Source: an uncultured Coriobacteriaceae bacterium
Lineage (GTDB): Bacteria; Actinomycetota; Coriobacteriia; Coriobacteriales; Eggerthellaceae
Length of the DNA: 35,551 nucleotides
Assembly: GCA_902764575.1 (NCBI GenBank)
Contig: CACWWI010000004.1
Coordinates: 1-35,551 of the forward strand
Direction of reading: 5' to 3'
The notes beneath the pieces are model-generated. The model worked only from the letters and a program-made list of their open reading frames with translations. It searched no databases and was not told the origin of the DNA. A program made the translations under genes and the position numbers. Position 1 is the first letter of the stretch. Each line of letters begins with the position of its first letter. Shown one piece after another: positions 4,992 through 12,819 of the stretch.

Positions 4992-6868
4992 AGCTCGTCT
5001 CCGTCCCCGTCGTCATCGAACAGGCCGGCGATGGCGGCACCGTCCGATTCGCTCTTCGCCCGCTCCCATTCGTCTGCGCGGCAATCGCCTGCCGCGAGCT
5101 CGTCTCCCAGCTCCCCTCCGGGCGCCACCATCGGGAACACGGCCTGGTCGCGCGAGATGCGCAGGTCCACCAAGTACGGGCCCTCCGACGCAAGCATGCG
5201 CTCGAGGGCGCCCTGCACCTCGTCGGGGTCGGTCACGCGCTCGGCTCCCCACGAATAGGCCTGCGCCAGCTTCACGAAATCGGGGTTGTCCTCGAGCTCT
5301 GTCGCCGAGTACCGCTTGTCGTAGAACAGCTTCTGCCATTGGCGCACCATGCCGAGCGCCCGGTTATCGAGCACCACGACCTTCACCGCCGCGCCGTTGA
5401 CCGCCGCCGTAGCCATTTCCTGGCTGTTCATCTGGAACGACCCGTCGCCCGCTATGCACACCACCTGGTCGTCGGGAAACGCCAGCGCCGCCCCGATGGC
5501 GGCCGGGAACCCGAAGCCCATGGTGCCGAGCCCGCCCGACGACAGGAACGTCCGCGGTACCTCGCGGTCGATGAACTGGACTGCCCACATCTGGTTCTGG
5601 CCCACCTCGGTCGTGACGATCGACCGCTCGGGGTCGAGCATGCCCGACAGCTGCGCGAGCGCCACCTCGGGCACGATCTGCCCGGGAACCTCGAGGGCGC
5701 GCGGGTCGAGCACGGGAAGCTCCCTGCGCCATGCGAACACCTCGTCCACCCATGCCCGGGTATCGGGAACCGAGCCCGACGACTCAACCTCCTCGATGAG
5801 CGCCCCCAGTACGATGGAAAGGTCGCCCACGATGGGCACCTGCGCCTCGCGGACCTTCCCGATCTCGGCGGGGTCGATGTCGATGTGGATGACGGCGGCG
5901 CGCGGGGCAAACGACTCCACCTTGCCCGTCACGCGGTCGGAGAAGCGGGCACCGCACGCGATAATCAGGTCGGACTCGTTGAGCGCGCGGTTGGCGTACT
6001 TCGACCCATGCATGCCGACGGGCCCCAGGTTGAGGGGCTCGTGCGTCGGAATGGCTCCCTTCGCCATGAGCGTGGTCACCGAGGGAATGCCGAGGTCCCG
6101 CATGAACTTCAACGCGAGCTCGGATGCCCCCGACGAGACGATTCCGCCGCCTGCGTACAAGATCGGGCGCTTGGCCTGCGCGATGAGCGCGGCAGCCGCG
6201 CGCACCTGGCGCGCGTTCCCGCGGTAGGTCGGCTTGTACGACGGGATGCTCACCTCGTCGGGATACTCGAACACGACCTCCTCCTGGGCAAGGTCGCTCG
6301 GCACGTCGATGAGCACGGGGCCCGGCCTGCCGGTCTTCGCGATGTGGAAGGCCTCGCGGAACGTGCGAGCCACGTCGTCCACCGACTTCAAGAGGTAGCT
6401 GTGCTTCACGACGGGCATGGTGATGCCCACGATGTCGGATTCCTGGAACGAATCGGTGCCGATGACGGCGCGCGGCACCTGGCCGCTCACGACCACGAGG
6501 GGAACCGAGTCCATGTAGGCGGTGGCGATGCCCGTAACCGTGTTCGTCGCCCCCGGACCGCTCGTCACCATGACAACGCCCACGTCGCCCGTGGCGCGCG
6601 CGTACCCGTCGGCCTCGTGTACCGCGCCCTGCTCGTGACGCGCGAGCACGTGGCGGATCACCTGGGAATCGTAGAGGGCGTCGTACATCTGGATGGCATG
6701 CCCTCCCGGGTACCCGAACACGATCTCGACGCCCTCGGCCTCGAGCGACGCCACGACCGCCTGTGCGCCCGTCATGCGCTGCCCTTGCTTGGGGTTCTCG
6801 CTGCCCGGGCCCTTAGGCGCACCGGCACGCGCCAACGGCCCCATCATCTGCCACTTGCTCTCGCTCAT
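4988..6868 (-). CDS. ilvB: Acetolactate synthase large (catalytic) subunit
   Basis: This thiamine-diphosphate enzyme condenses two pyruvates, or pyruvate and 2-ketobutyrate, in valine/leucine/isoleucine synthesis. The ATG at 6868 is preceded by GGGGGA and gives 626 residues; the open frame continues upstream into engB antisense and is not used. After about 30 variable residues come the Pyr domain (GYPGGHAIQMYDAL, ARHEQGAVHEADGYAR with the catalytic Glu), the central domain, and the PP domain with the cofactor motif GDGSFQMNSQE and downstream NRALGMVRQWQ. An acidic tail of roughly 45 residues rich in Asp/Glu extends the C terminus beyond most homologues. It runs into ilvN with an ATGA overlap. 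Confidence 0.96.
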   Translation of the reverse strand: MSESKWQMMGPLARAGAPKGPGSENPKQGQRMTGAQAVVASLEAEGVEIVFGYPGGHAIQMYDALYDSQVIRHVLARHEQGAVHEADGYARATGDVGVVMVTSGPGATNTVTGIATAYMDSVPLVVVSGQVPRAVIGTDSFQESDIVGITMPVVKHSYLLKSVDDVARTFREAFHIAKTGRPGPVLIDVPSDLAQEEVVFEYPDEVSIPSYKPTYRGNARQVRAAAALIAQAKRPILYAGGGIVSSGASELALKFMRDLGIPSVTTLMAKGAIPTHEPLNLGPVGMHGSKYANRALNESDLIIACGARFSDRVTGKVESFAPRAAVIHIDIDPAEIGKVREAQVPIVGDLSIVLGALIEEVESSGSVPDTRAWVDEVFAWRRELPVLDPRALEVPGQIVPEVALAQLSGMLDPERSIVTTEVGQNQMWAVQFIDREVPRTFLSSGGLGTMGFGFPAAIGAALAFPDDQVVCIAGDGSFQMNSQEMATAAVNGAAVKVVVLDNRALGMVRQWQKLFYDKRYSATELEDNPDFVKLAQAYSWGAERVTDPDEVQGALERMLASEGPYLVDLRISRDQAVFPMVAPGGELGDELAAGDCRADEWERAKSESDGAAIAGLFDDDGDGDEL

Positions 6869-6933
6869 GTTCGTCCCCCGACCTCGATAGGCCTCCTGTT
6901 CGCATCGCCCCATGATAGCACCAGAACAAACGA

Positions 6934-6942
6934 TGCTAGAAT
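6934..6942 (+). promoter_or_regulatory. Candidate extended -10 promoter for engB
   Basis: TGCTAGAAT matches the extended -10 pattern TGnTATAAT with one difference and ends 34 nt before the engB ATG. No convincing -35 hexamer is present, which is usual for extended -10 promoters. It lies in the short divergent gap between ilvB and engB. Confidence 0.45.
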
Positions 6943-6976
6943 TGGGAGGCTCACACCCACGCAGAACGGAGAAAAC

Positions 6977-7564
6977 ATGGGCATCAACTTCAGGGGCGCG
7001 ACCTTCGAGCGGTCGTACGGCACTTCTGCCCAGCTGCCCGAGTCCACGCTGCCCGAAATCGCCTTCGCGGGCCGTTCGAACGTGGGGAAGTCGTCGCTGC
7101 TGAACAAGCTCTGCGACCACAAGGGGCTGGCGAAGGTCTCGCAGACGCCCGGCAAGACGGCCACGATCAACTTCTTCGCAACCAAGGAGGCCTACCTGGT
7201 CGACCTGCCCGGCTACGGCTACGCGCGCGTTTCGCAGTCGGAGCGCGACCGCTGGGCCGAGCTCATCGAAGGCTATTTCAACCAGGATCGCAATTTCGCG
7301 CTCGTATGCTCGCTCATCGACATCCGCCATCCCGCGAGCGCGCTCGACGAGAACATGGTCGGGTTCCTGCAAGAGGCCGAGCTCCCCTACCTCATCGTGC
7401 TCACGAAGGGCGACAAGCTGTCAAAATCGAAGTGCGGCCAGCAGCGCGCGGCCCTCAAGCGCCAGCTCGGGGTGGCCGACGACGTGCCCATGATCGTCAC
7501 GTCCAGCCTCAAGGGAAGCGGCATAGACGAGCTGCGCAAGACGATTTCGGAAGCTATCCTGTAG
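6977..7564 (+). CDS. engB: Ribosome biogenesis GTPase EngB/YsxC
   Basis: This is a small TRAFAC GTPase that assists assembly of the large ribosomal subunit. The 195 residues contain G1 GRSNVGKSS (32-40), the switch region with T62 in PGKTATINF, G3 DLPGYG (76-81) and G4 TKGDK; a G5-like SSLKG is near the end. The ATG at 6977 follows GGAGA with good spacing and yields the standard family length. It is one of few plus-strand genes here, divergent from ilvB and convergent with rnhA. The name EngB/YihA/YsxC is used for the same family. Confidence 0.96.
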   Translation: MGINFRGATFERSYGTSAQLPESTLPEIAFAGRSNVGKSSLLNKLCDHKGLAKVSQTPGKTATINFFATKEAYLVDLPGYGYARVSQSERDRWAELIEGYFNQDRNFALVCSLIDIRHPASALDENMVGFLQEAELPYLIVLTKGDKLSKSKCGQQRAALKRQLGVADDVPMIVTSSLKGSGIDELRKTISEAIL

Positions 7565-7597
7565 AAACGGCCCTTCCGGGCGAAGGACCCTTGGCCG

Positions 7598-8077
7598 CTA
7601 GCCGGCAAAGCCCTCGTCGGCGATGAGGTCCTCGCCGTCGGCGGCGGCGGTGGCGAGCGCATCGCAGCGCTCGTTCTCCTCGTGGCCGGCGTGGCCGCGC
7701 ACCCAATGGAACGTCACCTCGTGCGGTTCCACGGCGGCGATCAGGCGCTTCCAGAGGTCGACGTTCTTCACGGGCTGCTTCTGGGAATTCTTCCACCCGC
7801 GCTTGATCCAACCAGGGATCCAATGGTCGGTGAAAGCCTTCACCACGTACTGAGAATCCGAGTAGAAGTCGACCGAGCAGGGCCGCTTGAGCGCCTCGAA
7901 GCCCGCGATGGCGCCCATGAGCTCCATCCGGTTGTTCGTGGTCGTGCGATAGCCCTGCGAGAGCTCGCGCTCGTGCACGCCGCCCGAAGGGTCGGTGAAC
8001 CTCAGGACCGTGCCGTACCCGCCCGGCCCCGGGTTCCCCCGCGATGACCCGTCGGAATAAACCTCTACGTGCTGCAT
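7598..8077 (-). CDS. rnhA: Ribonuclease HI
   Basis: This enzyme cuts the RNA strand of RNA-DNA hybrids during replication and R-loop removal. The 159 residues contain the four metal-binding carboxylates of the family: D9 ([15 protein letters not shown]), E52 ([10 protein letters not shown]), D74 (FYSDSQYV) and D139 (NERCDALA), plus the active-site loop His in WVRGHAGH. The basic segment [16 protein letters not shown] (around 90-105) corresponds to the substrate-handling region of E. coli-type RNase HI. It starts only 9 nt after the stop of an upstream NlpC/P60 gene, so the two are probably co-transcribed, though they share no obvious function. Confidence 0.96.
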
Positions 8078-8086
8078 CCCTAAGCC

Positions 8087-9193
8087 TTAGTAGCGGACGA
8101 TGATCATGCCGGACTGAACCGGGCCGATGATGACGCCGATGCCGTAGTCGGCAGCATGGATCATCTGGCCGCCGCCGATATAGATGCCGGTGTGCGTCCA
8201 GTTGACGCAGATGTCACCAGGCTGCGGGTCGGACACCTGCGGCCAGTTCATGAACGTGTACGTGGTGCCGAGGCGGGTGTGGGAGCCGGTCAGGCAGTAG
8301 CTCACGAGACCGGAGCAGTCGTAGCCTCCAGGGCCCACGCCGCCCCAAACGTAGGGGGCGCCCAGGCAGGCGTATGCGCGGCTCACGGTGTCGGAGCCGC
8401 CCTCGTACACGGCGCCCTCGGAAACGACCGGCGTCGAGTCGGCAGCGGCGTTGTAGCCAGACCCGCCGCCCGACTCCTCGGCGGCTGCTGCGGACTGTGC
8501 CACGATGGCCGCGGCACGGGCTGCCTCGGCAGCCTCCTGGGCCTTACGCTCCTCTTCCAGCAGCTGCGCTGCTTCGGCGCTCAGGCTGTCGTAGGTCGCC
8601 TGCATTTCAGCAACGGTCGCCTGGGCCTGCTCGGCTGCAGCCTCGGCCTCGGCGGATTTCTCCGCAGCGATCGTCGCCTGCGCGTCGTAGATGGCAGCCT
8701 GCTCCTCGGCCTCGGCCTTGAGCGAGCGCTGTTGCTCGATGAGGTCGGCATCGCTCTGGTTGAACTTGTTCACGGCATCGTAGGTCGTCGCGAACTCCTC
8801 GAACGAGCTCGCGCCGAGCAGAATCTCGAGGAACGACACGCCGCCCGAACGGTACATCTCGCGCGCGCGCTCACCCAAGCGCTCCTGCACGTCGGCGATC
8901 TGCACGTTGAGTTCGTTGATGCGCTTTTCGGCCTCATCGCGACTCGCCTCGGCCGCCTCCTGGGCGGCAAGGGCCTCGCCGTACTCGGCCGACAGGCGGT
9001 CGAGGGTCTCCTGCATGGCGTTCAGGTTGGCGAGCGCCTCCTCGGCTTCGGCCTGCTTCTCCGCTGCAGTCACTGCGAAGGCCGACCTCGGAGCCGACAC
9101 GATGGCGACGACGGCCACCACGAACAGCAATGCCGTGAGTGCCGCACCAGCCTTCTTGAGGGTAGACGAAATCGTTGGCGTCGTATGCTGCAT
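8087..9193 (-). CDS. Secreted coiled-coil NlpC/P60 peptidoglycan hydrolase (paralogue 1)
   Basis: This is a predicted secreted peptidoglycan endopeptidase of 368 residues. A signal peptide (basic start, hydrophobic 16-33, AFA cleavage region near 38-40) precedes a long Ala/Glu-rich coiled coil (about 42-235), a Gly/Ser linker, and a C-terminal NlpC/P60 domain (about 265-368). The catalytic Cys is C293 in YDCSGLVSY and the His is H334 in HTGIYIGGG, with H346 as the probable third residue. The layout resembles actinobacterial RipA and firmicute CwlO-type proteins, in which the coiled coil regulates the enzyme. The ATG is preceded by GGAGG. The next upstream gene is a close paralogue of nearly equal length. 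Confidence 0.92.
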   Translation of the reverse strand: MQHTTPTISSTLKKAGAALTALLFVVAVVAIVSAPRSAFAVTAAEKQAEAEEALANLNAMQETLDRLSAEYGEALAAQEAAEASRDEAEKRINELNVQIADVQERLGERAREMYRSGGVSFLEILLGASSFEEFATTYDAVNKFNQSDADLIEQQRSLKAEAEEQAAIYDAQATIAAEKSAEAEAAAEQAQATVAEMQATYDSLSAEAAQLLEEERKAQEAAEAARAAAIVAQSAAAAEESGGGSGYNAAADSTPVVSEGAVYEGGSDTVSRAYACLGAPYVWGGVGPGGYDCSGLVSYCLTGSHTRLGTTYTFMNWPQVSDPQPGDICVNWTHTGIYIGGGQMIHAADYGIGVIIGPVQSGMIIVRY

Positions 9194-9486: not shown

Positions 9487-10590
9487 TTAGTTCGCGCTCA
9501 CGAAGAACCCGCCCTTCGAGGGATCGTACGTGGTCTCCGCTACACCGCGGGACTCGTCGATCGCGTGGATGAGCGTTCCCTCGCCCGAGTAGATGGCGAC
9601 ATGGCCAAGGTCGGGGCTGATGTAGAGGTCGCCTGCCTGGGGCTCGGACACGCGCGTGTAGTTCGCGAACGAATACGAGGTGCCCAAGCGCGTGTTGGAC
9701 CCGGTGAGGGCGTAGCTCACGAGGCCGGAGCAGTCGAAGCCGCCGTCCGACCCGCCGACGCCGCCCCACACGTAATTCGAGCCGATCATGGCACGGGCGC
9801 GGTCGACGACCGCGTTGCCCGTTGCGGCGCTGTAGGCGCCCGCCGACTCGTACACCTGGCCGGTCTGGATGTCGGTAACCGTGCCGTCGTCGTTCACATA
9901 ACCGCCCTCGGTCACGTAACCGTTGGCGTTAGCACCGTATGCCGCGTAGGCAGCCGCCTGCTCCTGCAGGTAGAGCTCCTGCGCCTCGGCGCTCAGCTGG
10001 TTGAAGGTGGCTTCCATCTCCTGGACGAGAGCCTCGGCCTCGTGGTACTTGTCGGAGGCCTCCTTGGACTTCTGCTCGGCGATCGCAGCCTGCTTCTCGT
10101 ACTCGGCCTCTTCTTCCTTAACCTTCTCGAAGAGGACCTTCGCCTGAGCGGAAAGCTGCGCGTCGTTCTCGTTCATGCGGTTGAGCAGGTCCCAGTTCTG
10201 GGCGAACTCGTCCCAGCTGGCCGCCCCGAGCAACAGGTCGAGGAACGACGTGTTACCGCTGCGGTACATGTCGCGCGCACGGTCGCCGAGCCTCGCCTGG
10301 ATATCGGCGATTTCGCCCTTGAGCTCGTCGATACGCCCCTGGGCCTCCTTGGCCTTCGTGTTTGCCGCCTCGTATTCGGTGAGCGCCTGGATGTAGGCAT
10401 TCGACGCCTCGTCGAGCGTGGCCTGCATGGCGTTGAGCTCGTTCATCACGCTCTCAGCCTCCGCGGCCTTCTCGGCGGCAGTCACGGCATAGGCGGGGCT
10501 GGCGGGGAGCAGGCATGCGAACGCGAGCGCGGCGGCGATGGCCACCAGAGAGCATGCCCCTACAAACTTAACCTGGGTAGTGCACTTCAT
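9487..10590 (-). CDS. Secreted coiled-coil NlpC/P60 peptidoglycan hydrolase (paralogue 2)
   Basis: This predicted secreted cell-wall endopeptidase has 367 residues from the ATG at 10590, chosen because GGAGGG lies upstream and a signal peptide follows directly (hydrophobic 10-30, PAYA cleavage region at 32-35). A Glu/Ala-rich coiled coil covers about 36-212, then a Tyr/Gly-rich linker, then NlpC/P60 (about 260-367) with C287 in FDCSGLVSY, H330 in LGHVAIYSGEG and H342. It shares with paralogue 1 the coiled-coil segment around LGDRARDMYRSGNTSFLDLLLGA and the phrase SGLVSYxLTGSxTRLGT, so the pair arose by duplication. Linker and C terminus differ, which could mean different regulation or substrate. 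It ends in its own terminator. Confidence 0.92.
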   Translation of the reverse strand: MKCTTQVKFVGACSLVAIAAALAFACLLPASPAYAVTAAEKAAEAESVMNELNAMQATLDEASNAYIQALTEYEAANTKAKEAQGRIDELKGEIADIQARLGDRARDMYRSGNTSFLDLLLGAASWDEFAQNWDLLNRMNENDAQLSAQAKVLFEKVKEEEAEYEKQAAIAEQKSKEASDKYHEAEALVQEMEATFNQLSAEAQELYLQEQAAAYAAYGANANGYVTEGGYVNDDGTVTDIQTGQVYESAGAYSAATGNAVVDRARAMIGSNYVWGGVGGSDGGFDCSGLVSYALTGSNTRLGTSYSFANYTRVSEPQAGDLYISPDLGHVAIYSGEGTLIHAIDESRGVAETTYDPSKGGFFVSAN

Positions 10591-10690
10591 ACGTGAATCC
10601 CTCCGTTTCCGGTGTCGTTCAGCATTGAAAAGGGTACCAAACATATGTGGAGAAATGAGCACAACTCGCCACTTATGGTGAGAATCTTGT

Positions 10691-10730
10691 CCCATTTTCC
10701 GCCCTGACCTTTGCGTATGAGGAAAATGGG
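10691..10730. promoter_or_regulatory. 10-bp perfect inverted repeat upstream of paralogue 2
   Basis: CCCATTTTCC (10691-10700) and GGAAAATGGG (10721-10730) are perfect inverted repeats with a 20-nt spacer. They lie in the 240-nt gap between metG and the NlpC/P60 gene, about 100 nt upstream of the latter's start. A related CCTCATTTTC occurs near 10773. The function is unknown; an operator or part of a promoter region is possible. Confidence 0.4.
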
Positions 10731-10830
10731 TGTTTCTCGTTTCAGCCAGGTGAGCTGCACCGATATGCCGTTCCTCATTTTCGGGCCACAAGGCCCCTCG
10801 CCTTCGCGCGGGATGTCGAGGGGCACGCGT

Positions 10831-12819
10831 CTAGAAGAAGTCGTAGCGCGGAGGCAGCTCTTCCACCACATGGCCTTCAGGCGCCGGATCGAGCTCGCCG
10901 AGCGTCGCGAAAGCGTGGTCCCAGGAGAAGAACGCCTGCTGGTCGAAGCGCAGTTTCGCGCAGATGTCCTCGCAGCCCGCGGGCACGACCGGGTGCATCA
11001 GCAGCGAGCAGATCCACAGGAGATACGCGGAGTCGACGAGCACTTGCTCGCGGGCTGCGGCATCGTCGGCAGACTCCGCCGCCGATATGCCGTCGGCCCA
11101 ATGCTTGTTGGCGTAGCGGATGAACTCGTCCATGAGCGACATCACCGTGTGCAGCTCGGCCTTCTTCATGGTGCGGTCGTAATCGGACAGCGCCTTGCGC
11201 GCGCGCTCGACCACCTCGGGCGTCGGGTCGCCGGCGGGCAGCACGCCCCCGAAGTTGCGCTTGGCCTCGTAGAGCACGCTGCGCGCGAGGCGGTTGAACA
11301 CGTTCGAGAGCAGCTTGGACTCCTTGAGCGCCGGGTCGGCCACACGGGTGTCGTTGCGCACGGCCTCGTCGGGCTCGAACGCCTTCGGCTTGAAGCCGAC
11401 CGATTTCTGCCCCAGGCCCAATGCCAGGAAATGCGCGCGCAGCTGCTCGCACGTGTAGTGCTCGAGCAGCTCGTCGGCCGTGGGCGGCTTCACCGTGCCC
11501 GATGACGACGCCTTCTTGTTGCCCAGCAGCACGTGATAGTTCGCGATGAGGCGCGTCTGGCGCATCGGGTGCTCGGAGGGCTCGTGGAAGAAGATGTCGC
11601 CGGGGCGCAGCGCCTCCCACATGGCCGGTTGCGCCACGCCGTAGAAGTACAGGTTGTCCTGGCCGATGAACTGGTAGACGCACGCGTCGTCGGCGCACCA
11701 GAAATCGCGCCAGCTGCCCGCGGGCAGGCCGCGCGCATCGTTTGCGGCGATGGTGAACGAGATGGGCGCCCACAGGCTCTCGGGCCAGCACCATACGGTG
11801 AGCCCCTCCACCCCGTCGATGACCGGCGCCTTCACGCCCCACTCGATGTTGCCGGTAATGCGGAACGGCACGAGCGCCTTGCCCGTGCGGAAGCGTAGGC
11901 CGGCGCGGCGCAGCACGTCGCGAGCGGCGTCGCGCTCCCCGATGGTCGCGAACTCAACTTCGAACGATGCCTTGCCCTTCTCGGGCTCGCGCACCTCGTG
12001 CGGGGGCAGCTGGCCGGCAACGCCGTCGAACAGCTCGCGCTCGTCGTTCTTCACGTAGATGATGGGCGCGCCCAGGAACTCGGCGCACGTTTGCGGCACG
12101 ATGGCGCGGACGTCCGGGTCCTTCTCGAGCTCGGCCACATGCCCGCGCAGGAAGTCGCGAAACGCCGGCAGGTCGAAGTACCAGTTGGCAACGGGACGCA
12201 TCTCGGGCACGGTGCCGGTGACGGTCGAGCGCGGCGCGATGAGCTCCTCGGGAGCGTAGCTGTGACCCAGGTCGCACTCGTCGGCGTAGCCTTTCTCCGA
12301 CTTGCAGCCCTGCACGGGGCAGCGGCCGACGACCTGGCGGCCGTTCAGGTAGATGCCGGCCTCGGCGTCGTAGAACTGCTGCGTCTCCTCGAGGTGCAGC
12401 CAACCGTTCTCGTGGAGCCGGCGGATGATGTTGTCGGTGAGCTCCTGGTGGCATTCGCCCGCGTGGCCGATGCCCGAGCCCTCGTAGATGTCGAGGCTGA
12501 TGTCGTAGGCGTCGAGCGTCGCCGCCTGCGCATCGTGGTTGCGCTGCACGTACTCGGCGATGGTGCCCGTGAACTCGCCCGCTTCCACCAGTTTGCGGTA
12601 GCCCTCGTCGATGGGCGACCCGAAGCAGTCGGTGCCGCAGACGAAGCGCACGTTGTCGGCACCGATGCGGTCGCGCAGGAAGCGCGCGTAGCAGTCGGCC
12701 GGCACGAACACGCCGGCGATATGGCCGAAATGCAACGGCTTGTTTCCGTAGGGCATGCCCGCCGTAACCACCGCGCGGCGCGGCCACTCCTGCAGCTCGA
12801 ATGAATTCGAAGAGGTCAT
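10831..12819 (-). CDS. metG: Methionyl-tRNA synthetase-like class I tRNA ligase
   Basis: This enzyme charges tRNA-Met or is a close paralogue of one that does. The 662 residues begin with the catalytic fold: TAGMPYGNKPLHFGH, with the HIGH-type signature HFGH at 30-33, and FVCGTDCFGSPI. A metal-binding knuckle region follows (CPVQGC, then CDLGH), then ELIAPRSTVTG and WYFDLPAF as in MetRS. FIGQDNLYFYG and an anticodon-binding helical domain come next. Where KMSKS is expected there is KKASSS (435-440), so the first Lys and a Ser remain but the loop is unusual. No C-terminal OB-fold tRNA-binding domain is present. It starts 29 nt after sppA with GAGGGGAG upstream, so both genes probably share a transcript. 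Confidence 0.82.
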   Translation of the reverse strand: MTSSNSFELQEWPRRAVVTAGMPYGNKPLHFGHIAGVFVPADCYARFLRDRIGADNVRFVCGTDCFGSPIDEGYRKLVEAGEFTGTIAEYVQRNHDAQAATLDAYDISLDIYEGSGIGHAGECHQELTDNIIRRLHENGWLHLEETQQFYDAEAGIYLNGRQVVGRCPVQGCKSEKGYADECDLGHSYAPEELIAPRSTVTGTVPEMRPVANWYFDLPAFRDFLRGHVAELEKDPDVRAIVPQTCAEFLGAPIIYVKNDERELFDGVAGQLPPHEVREPEKGKASFEVEFATIGERDAARDVLRRAGLRFRTGKALVPFRITGNIEWGVKAPVIDGVEGLTVWCWPESLWAPISFTIAANDARGLPAGSWRDFWCADDACVYQFIGQDNLYFYGVAQPAMWEALRPGDIFFHEPSEHPMRQTRLIANYHVLLGNKKASSSGTVKPPTADELLEHYTCEQLRAHFLALGLGQKSVGFKPKAFEPDEAVRNDTRVADPALKESKLLSNVFNRLARSVLYEAKRNFGGVLPAGDPTPEVVERARKALSDYDRTMKKAELHTVMSLMDEFIRYANKHWADGISAAESADDAAAREQVLVDSAYLLWICSLLMHPVVPAGCEDICAKLRFDQQAFFSWDHAFATLGELDPAPEGHVVEELPPRYDFF

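Follow-up and report, generated by a model that had tools for sequence, protein, structure and literature searches.

A methionyl-tRNA synthetase paralog of Coriobacteriales as a putative glutaminyl-tRNA synthetase

The locus and the encoded protein

The stretch of DNA analyzed here, called the window throughout, comprises positions 1 to 35,551 of contig CACWWI010000004.1 from an uncultured Coriobacteriaceae bacterium of the order Coriobacteriales. Its reverse strand encodes a 662-residue paralog of methionyl-tRNA synthetase (MetRS), which we propose to be a class I synthetase derived from the MetRS family that most likely charges tRNA-Gln with glutamine; we infer this catalysis and give the proposal a probability of roughly three in four. 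We favor glutamine because the paralog is the only visible candidate for producing Gln-tRNA where neither GatB, of the amidotransferase GatCAB, nor glutaminyl-tRNA synthetase (GlnRS) was found, and because its amino acid pocket is altered, the glutamyl-tRNA synthetase (GluRS) gene gltX adjoins it, and the GlnRS gene glnS takes the same place in some relatives. The case is strongest for Bacillota groups without GatB, and for the window's organism it rests on a pocket that appears by alignment to be shared and nearly invariant.

A first-pass annotation, made from the letters of the window, had reported the MetRS landmarks HFGH, a zinc-knuckle region, and RSTVTG, and we located all of these in the open reading frame (ORF), with RSTVTG at residues 197-202 (Table 1). 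KKASSS was likewise found where KMSKS is expected, and a C-terminal tRNA-binding domain is indeed absent, as it is from a canonical MetRS of the same genome (531 residues, contig C100). The zinc-knuckle spacing C-x4-C ... C-x3-H, which had been called unusual, is present as described, and the oddity is a trait of the family, occurring in 25/25, 49/49, and 51/51 rows of our alignments. Because the zinc-knuckle positions are conserved across the family, a chance origin of the motifs is excluded.

The window protein matched Pfam tRNA-synt_1g with 204 bits. Its scores against the two NCBIfam MetRS equivalog models were far under the curated cut-offs (230 against 587 and 173.5 against 336.35 bits), which places it outside methionine-tRNA synthetases as these models define them. 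It also falls outside canonical GlnRS, as neither PF00749 nor TIGR00440 (glnS) gave a match up to an E value of 1. Membership among class I aminoacyl-tRNA synthetases is indicated by HFGH and by KASSS, read as K-x-S-x-S, a loose class I pattern that KKASSS still fits. The MetRS of Pyrococcus abyssi reads KKFSTS at the aligned place.

An AlphaFold model of the protein (mean predicted local distance difference test score, 90.5) had E. coli MetRS (PDB 1f4l) as its best structural match, with a Z score of 35.7, 521 aligned residues, a root mean square deviation of 3.0, and 25% identity. The MetRS-like domain of PyrN with a glutamyl-adenylate analog (PDB 9l8v) was among the Foldseek structural matches; when the PDB was searched with residues 320-470, only MetRS, and not PyrN, was among the matches listed. 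The inserted domain has a predicted beta-alpha-beta-beta-alpha-beta, ferredoxin-like topology and no counterpart in E. coli MetRS or the two MetRS proteins of the genome, and it gave no Pfam match and no Foldseek match at an E value of ≤0.001.

Table 1. Features of the paralog in window coordinates
Feature	Positions	Strand	Basis
MetRS paralog, 662 residues, ATG start; putative MetRS-derived glutaminyl-tRNA synthetase	10831..12819	(-)	ORF, Pfam, AlphaFold model
G21-M22-P23-Y24, N-terminal pocket side, equivalent to E. coli A12-L13-P14-Y15	12748..12759	(-)	Alignment
HFGH, class I HIGH motif, residues 30-33	12721..12732	(-)	
D64-C65; D64 equivalent to E. coli D52	12625..12630	(-)	D64 in 46/46 and 51/51 aligned rows
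CPVQGC, zinc-knuckle half, C167 and C172, residues 167-172	12304..12321	(-)	Invariant in family
CDLGH, zinc-knuckle half, C182 and H186, residues 182-186	12262..12276	(-)	Invariant in family
Inserted domain, residues about 253-312	11884..12063	(-)	Structure models, alignment
WCWPESLWAP, residues 343-352, where MetRS has the motif W-x-D-A-P; three residues are extra	11764..11793	(-)	Alignments
QFIGQDNLYFYGVAQ, residues 383-397; Q387, N389, Y393, Q397 equivalent to E. coli K295, I297, H301, W305	11629..11673	(-)	Alignment
KKASSS, residues 435-440, KMSKS-loop equivalent, core K436-A-S-S-S440	11500..11517	(-)	KASSS in 50/51 rows
C-terminal helical bundle, anticodon-binding type, residues about 501-623	10951..11319	(-)	Model helices; weak Pfam Anticodon_1, E value of 0.14
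N509-R-L-A-R-S514, at the place of E. coli anticodon-reading N391...R395	11278..11295	(-)	Alignments; N509, R510, R513, S514 in 51/51 rows

A conserved family beside canonical MetRS

To look for a second metG, we searched the genome of the window's organism (2.48 Mb in 268 contigs, 95% complete) with tRNA-synt_1g and obtained two canonical MetRS genes with KMSKS, on contigs C180 and C100, so that the suggestion of an only MetRS with an adapted loop does not hold. The C180 protein (679 residues) has a C-terminal extension aligning with the C-terminal domain of E. coli MetRS. Its gene is of the E. coli type and lies on a 3.9-kb contig (L004, positions 473-2512), and this second MetRS could be either a supernumerary gene or a contaminant. 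Canonical MetRS also accompanied the paralog in all six further genomes examined (those of L127, L130, L099, L104, L091, and L116), or 7/7 with the window's own. The four of these that belong to the same order (L099, L104, L091, and L116) hold one canonical MetRS each, similar in score and length to the C100 gene.

The paralog is present in 57/61 close-kin genomes, its own included (E value of ≤1e-20; G050 counted as lacking it, following the kin-genome search), and in 43 of the 44 kin genomes with ≥90% completeness and ≤5% contamination. In a sample of the phylum, it occurred in 23/296 genomes (E value of ≤1e-60), every one of them in the window's order. Named carriers among the best 80 of 562 loci were Gordonibacter, Adlercreutzia, Slackia, Raoultibacter, Rubneribacter, Olsenella, Thermophilibacter, and Atopobium, and two further carriers in this set bear the names Ruminococcus and Oscillospiraceae. 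The spread in Bacillota is patchy, with 24/51 genomes in the order of G345, 17/197 in the order of G346, and 3/398 across the whole phylum of G345; these gave 43 Bacillota genomes with the paralog (24 + 2 + 17), and we read the loci of 28.

The catalytic motifs are nearly uniform across 51 aligned rows: the HIGH motif reads HFGH in 48, HLGH in 2, and YFHY in 1 (HxGH in 50/51), and the KMSKS loop reads KASSS in 50 and KVSSS in 1. K436, A437, S438, and S439 were invariant in a set of 46 aligned members. KASSS is thus the norm of the family rather than a mark of reduced activity, as had been suspected, and we found nothing to suggest a merely weaker MetRS. The other half of the original suspicion, a paralog with a different activity, gains support from the pocket, gene content, and gene order, and the KKASSS loop is not its basis. 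The first-pass annotation had also allowed that the loop might prove standard, and these rows bear this out. In a tree of 51 paralogs and three MetRS proteins, the window's order (support, 92/100) and the Bacillota without L219 (85/96) formed groups, both below the level that the tool marks with a star, and L219 (G809) was basal. Outgroup branches were very long (8.55 for the C100 MetRS), and the tree therefore does not fix the place of the paralog within MetRS.

We compared the pocket by sequence alignment rather than by model coordinates, with E. coli residues numbered as in the literature (one lower than in our working alignment, which counted from Met1). The methionine pocket of E. coli MetRS has been described as L13, Y15, H23, D52, W253, A256, Y260, G294, K295, D296, H301, and W305 (PMC3742241), and positions 13, 256, and 297 as near the methionine side chain (PMC7041857). 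Kept in all 51 rows are Y24, D64, W345, A351, G386, and D388, with three extra residues (SLW) aligned directly ahead of A351. At L13, Y260, K295, I297, H301, and W305, the window protein appears by alignment to depart from the methionine pocket throughout. L13 is replaced by M22 (50/51 rows), Y260 by F355 (50/51), K295 by Q387 (46/51), I297 by N389 (51/51, and 45/46 in a separate 46-row alignment), and H301 by Y393 (51/51, and 46/46 in the separate alignment). W305 corresponds to residue 397 (window codon 11629-11631), which is Gln in 31/51 rows and Glu in 20/51. A polar residue at 297 and Tyr at 301 would suit an amide-ended side chain of the length of methionine. The anticodon-facing residues may differ as well: N391, R395, and W461, the anticodon readers of E. 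coli MetRS, align with R510, S514, and A580, but N509-x3-R513 could match at a shift of one residue. Around the R233-type position, the alignment contains gaps.

Gene content and gene order around the paralog

We searched 80 genomes, hand-selected out of 140, for GatB (PF02934), GlnRS (TIGR00440), and asparaginyl-tRNA synthetase (AsnRS; TIGR00457); the 60 unpicked genomes include 11 Bacillota with the paralog (G367, G369, G371, G372, G381, G396, G857, G871, G927, G938, and G951). The paralog was present in 59 of the 80 and not in 21. GatB was not found in 12/80 genomes by the PF02934 search, which did not extend to GatA or GatC; a short match in G352 (44/277 positions) was scored as present. 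Eleven of the 12 (G345, G374, G379, G380, G393, G394, G395, G800, G821, G839, and G840) also lacked a GlnRS over the cut-off, and every one of these 11 carries the paralog together with an AsnRS over the curated cut-off. The twelfth, G397, is without the paralog and encodes a canonical GlnRS (750 bits) and AsnRS. The paralog was thus present in 11/11 genomes in which GatB and GlnRS were both absent, as expected of a GlnRS-like enzyme, and none of the 80 genomes lacked GatB, GlnRS, and the paralog all together. In G345, G364, G800, G900, and G982, PF00749 yielded one protein only, a GluRS. The part of a bacterial survey of GluRS, GlnRS, and gatCAB on which we drew contains no category without both GlnRS and gatCAB (PMC3927822).

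On the paralog tree, the label of neither GatB nor GlnRS requires five changes, as gains or losses, and its carriers form the clusters G800, G821, and G839; G379 and G380; and G345, G393, G394, and G395 (G393 and G395 being near copies), with G374 and G840 standing singly. Since three of the five clusters hold two to four species, assembly gaps alone are unlikely to explain the label. The gene-content argument is one of necessity in 11 genomes and not of correlation.

Gene order in Bacillota also points toward glutamine. In 19/28 Bacillota loci, gltX is immediately adjacent to the paralog, upstream in 16 and downstream in 3; it is two ORFs off in one further locus (L223) and unlinked in eight. 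Adjacency in opposite orders argues for a functional link. Canonical glnS stands immediately beside gltX in G397, G799, and G803. In G802 it is two ORFs from gltX, and in the other four GlnRS genomes no gltX occurred in the stretch read around glnS. The G802 locus, f38-gltX-f44-x-glnS, resembles the G840 locus, f38-gltX-x-f44-paralog, with protein identities of 48% for f38, 74% for gltX, and 64% for f44.

The accompanying GluRS may itself be specialized. Of the 24 paralog-bearing Bacillota whose GluRS we read, 22 have a long form of the enzyme that shows RKD at one alignment position (20/22 in one alignment, plus G368 and G840 from another); G559 and G592, which do not, carry canonical GlnRS as well. 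Among Bacillota without the paralog, RKD occurred in 3/6 genomes with GlnRS (G397, G802, and G803) and in 0/7 without it. The GluRS proteins of G061 and G071 lie outside the comparison, the sequence read for G000 was cut short of the compared region, and the GluRS of G042 holds RKD elsewhere, off the aligned place. For the window's order, inspection of the alignment by eye for the residue equivalent to Thermus thermophilus R358, in rows that do not include T. thermophilus, pointed neither toward nor away from discrimination. Judged from these sequences, the RKD type is a candidate for a discriminating GluRS that would leave tRNA-Gln to another enzyme. The long GluRS has an N-terminal extension, and the L127 copy (6301-7941) scores 286 against 290, just under the gltX_bact cut-off.

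Around the window gene itself, two tandem proteins with PcsB-like coiled coils and NlpC/P60 domains are encoded directly downstream (8087-9193 and 9487-10791). SppA lies upstream only in the window's family, with Rho further upstream in several members, and neighbors vary elsewhere in the order; as this context is limited to the family, we rejected a conserved operon for the order. An anti-phage role was likewise rejected, there being no PADLOC match. No dedicated tRNA gene lies beside the paralog in the window, and the 33 loci scanned held a single tRNA-Tyr.

Several observations weigh against the glutamine assignment. Residue 397 is Gln in all 23 rows from the window's order and Glu in 20/28 Bacillota, including all 11 without GatB; this split weakens the transfer of the glutamine inference to the window's protein, which could differ. 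Every one of the 28 genomes tested from the order, 27 of them with the paralog, retains GatB, and gltX did not stand beside the paralog in the loci of the order that we read. The window's own organism has GatB and neither GlnRS nor AsnRS over the curated cut-offs. Eighteen of the 28 genomes lack an AsnRS over the cut-off, so GatCAB may serve Asn-tRNA there; the other 10 have one, so Asn-tRNA alone does not demand GatB. GatCAB beside both AsnRS and GlnRS is known from Bdellovibrio, Deinococcus, and Thermus (PMC4206432), and in our set seven of the eight genomes with a canonical GlnRS over the cut-off keep GatB. Two genomes, G559 and G592, carry canonical GlnRS as well as the paralog. In G592, the two genes lie about 3.6 kb apart (L214, 6983-9001 and 12605-14338). 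A 2x2 Fisher test of the absence of both GatB and GlnRS against the paralog gave a P value of 0.058, a crude figure that ignores kinship, and the 11 genomes are multicontig drafts of unstated completeness in which GatB stood for all of GatCAB. Finally, the paralog of G840, which has neither GatB nor GlnRS, reads YFHY for HFGH (L223, 7052-8977, minus strand), which weakens both its count among the 11 and the comparison with the G802 locus. This copy may be decaying or reflect a sequence error or assembly gap; HFGH is intact in the other ten genomes.

Alternative activities and comparison with known systems

The MetRS fold, the 204-bit Pfam match, and the Z score of 35.7 to E. coli MetRS would suit an additional MetRS or a modified one, such as a form that is resistant, stress related, or relaxed in specificity. 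We consider this very improbable, as positions 260, 295, 297, 301, and 305 of the pocket are changed and, save 305, invariant or almost invariant among members, the residues opposite the anticodon readers appear to differ, the equivalog scores are far under their cut-offs, and all seven genomes checked hold one or more canonical MetRS genes. A somewhat better, still poor candidate is a tRNA-independent amino acid ligase serving a metabolite, of the kind known from PyrN, Spb40, and Tri28, the cupin-linked MetRS-like hydrazine synthetases. These are MetRS paralogs that group with MetRS of the archaeo-eukaryotic type, are frequent in Actinobacteria, and always occur beside a conventional MetRS (PMC2922099); PyrN activates glutamate (PMC8664883), and its domain is among the structural matches of the window protein. 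Against such a ligase, tRNA-synt_1g and a weak Anticodon_1 are the only domains found in the window protein, with no cupin, and neither a cupin nor a lysine N6-monooxygenase was detected among the 20 neighboring proteins scanned, a minority of all neighbors. The gene is moreover near universal in one order (57/61) and stands beside gltX in 19/28 Bacillota loci, the model keeps a helical bundle of the anticodon type, and a ligase would leave the genomes without another route to Gln-tRNA unexplained.

The least improbable alternative, though we doubt it, is that the protein charges a tRNA with another amino acid, such as glutamate onto tRNA-Gln in the manner of GluRS2 or a nonstandard residue, and that the genomes without GatB use a further route or have assembly gaps. 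The draft state of these genomes and the search for GatB alone leave some space for this idea, and Glu at residue 397 in the same genomes leaves room for another side chain. A role like that of GluRS2 needs GatCAB, though, and our search detected no GatB in 11 genomes with the paralog. The absence recurs in clusters of two to four related species, and all 12 genomes without GatB possess AsnRS, as expected of true loss.

We therefore return to a glutamine-charging enzyme. That PyrN activates glutamate provides a precedent for retuning a MetRS pocket. Glutamine, nearly isosteric with methionine, would be activated with ATP in the altered pocket. There N389 and Y393, which replace I297 and H301, would give the side-chain amide polar contacts, possibly aided by Q387 and by Gln or Glu at 397. 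The helical bundle would then bind tRNA-Gln rather than tRNA-Met, so that Gln-tRNA-Gln would be made in a single step without GatCAB. In Bacillota without GatB, the paralog would be the sole source of Gln-tRNA; in the window's organism, GatCAB would be needed for Asn-tRNA while the paralog would make Gln-tRNA directly, although the paralog may be redundant with GatCAB there.

GlnRS is considered a latecomer derived from GluRS (PMC3927822). With only slightly less assurance than for the glutamine assignment itself, we think it likely that GlnRS arose twice: besides the GluRS-derived enzyme, one derived from MetRS would occur in an actinobacterial order and several Bacillota lineages, apparently displacing glnS beside gltX and letting GatCAB go, probably more than once. 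We found no paper naming a MetRS-derived GlnRS in the open-licence literature, a search that leaves preprints and most subscription journals outside its reach.

If this holds, there would be two separately evolved GlnRS enzymes, in parallel with lysyl-tRNA synthetase, which exists as two unrelated classes. How each amino acid came by its synthetase is a question at the heart of the evolution of the genetic code, and a GlnRS built on the nearly isosteric pocket of methionine would offer a natural experiment on how specificity changes. Annotation would need revision for a whole order of gut bacteria, genomes seemingly unable to make Gln-tRNA would be explained, and the paralog may serve as a basis for engineering the specificity of synthetases.

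Among known systems, the paralog shares with MetRS of the archaeal or E. coli type (PRK00133/TIGR00398; PDB 1f4l and 1rqg) the fold, the HIGH motif, a KMSKS-type loop, the zinc-knuckle region, and the helical bundle, and it differs in its altered methionine pocket, inserted domain, KASSS, and low identity (25% to 1f4l). With canonical GlnRS (TIGR00440, PF00749), it has in common the proposed reaction, adjacency to gltX in some Bacillota, and the slot in gene content, whereas it stems from a different class I subfamily and matches neither PF00749 nor glnS. Like PyrN and Spb40 (PMC2922099 and PMC8664883; PDB 9l8v), it is MetRS derived with a specificity that has probably changed, which is for glutamate in PyrN; unlike them, it has no cupin in the protein or the 20 scanned neighbors, has the gltX neighborhood of Bacillota, and is near universal in one order. 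The indirect pathway of GluRS and GatCAB leads to the same Gln-tRNA-Gln in two steps with an amidotransferase, in contrast to the single step proposed here.

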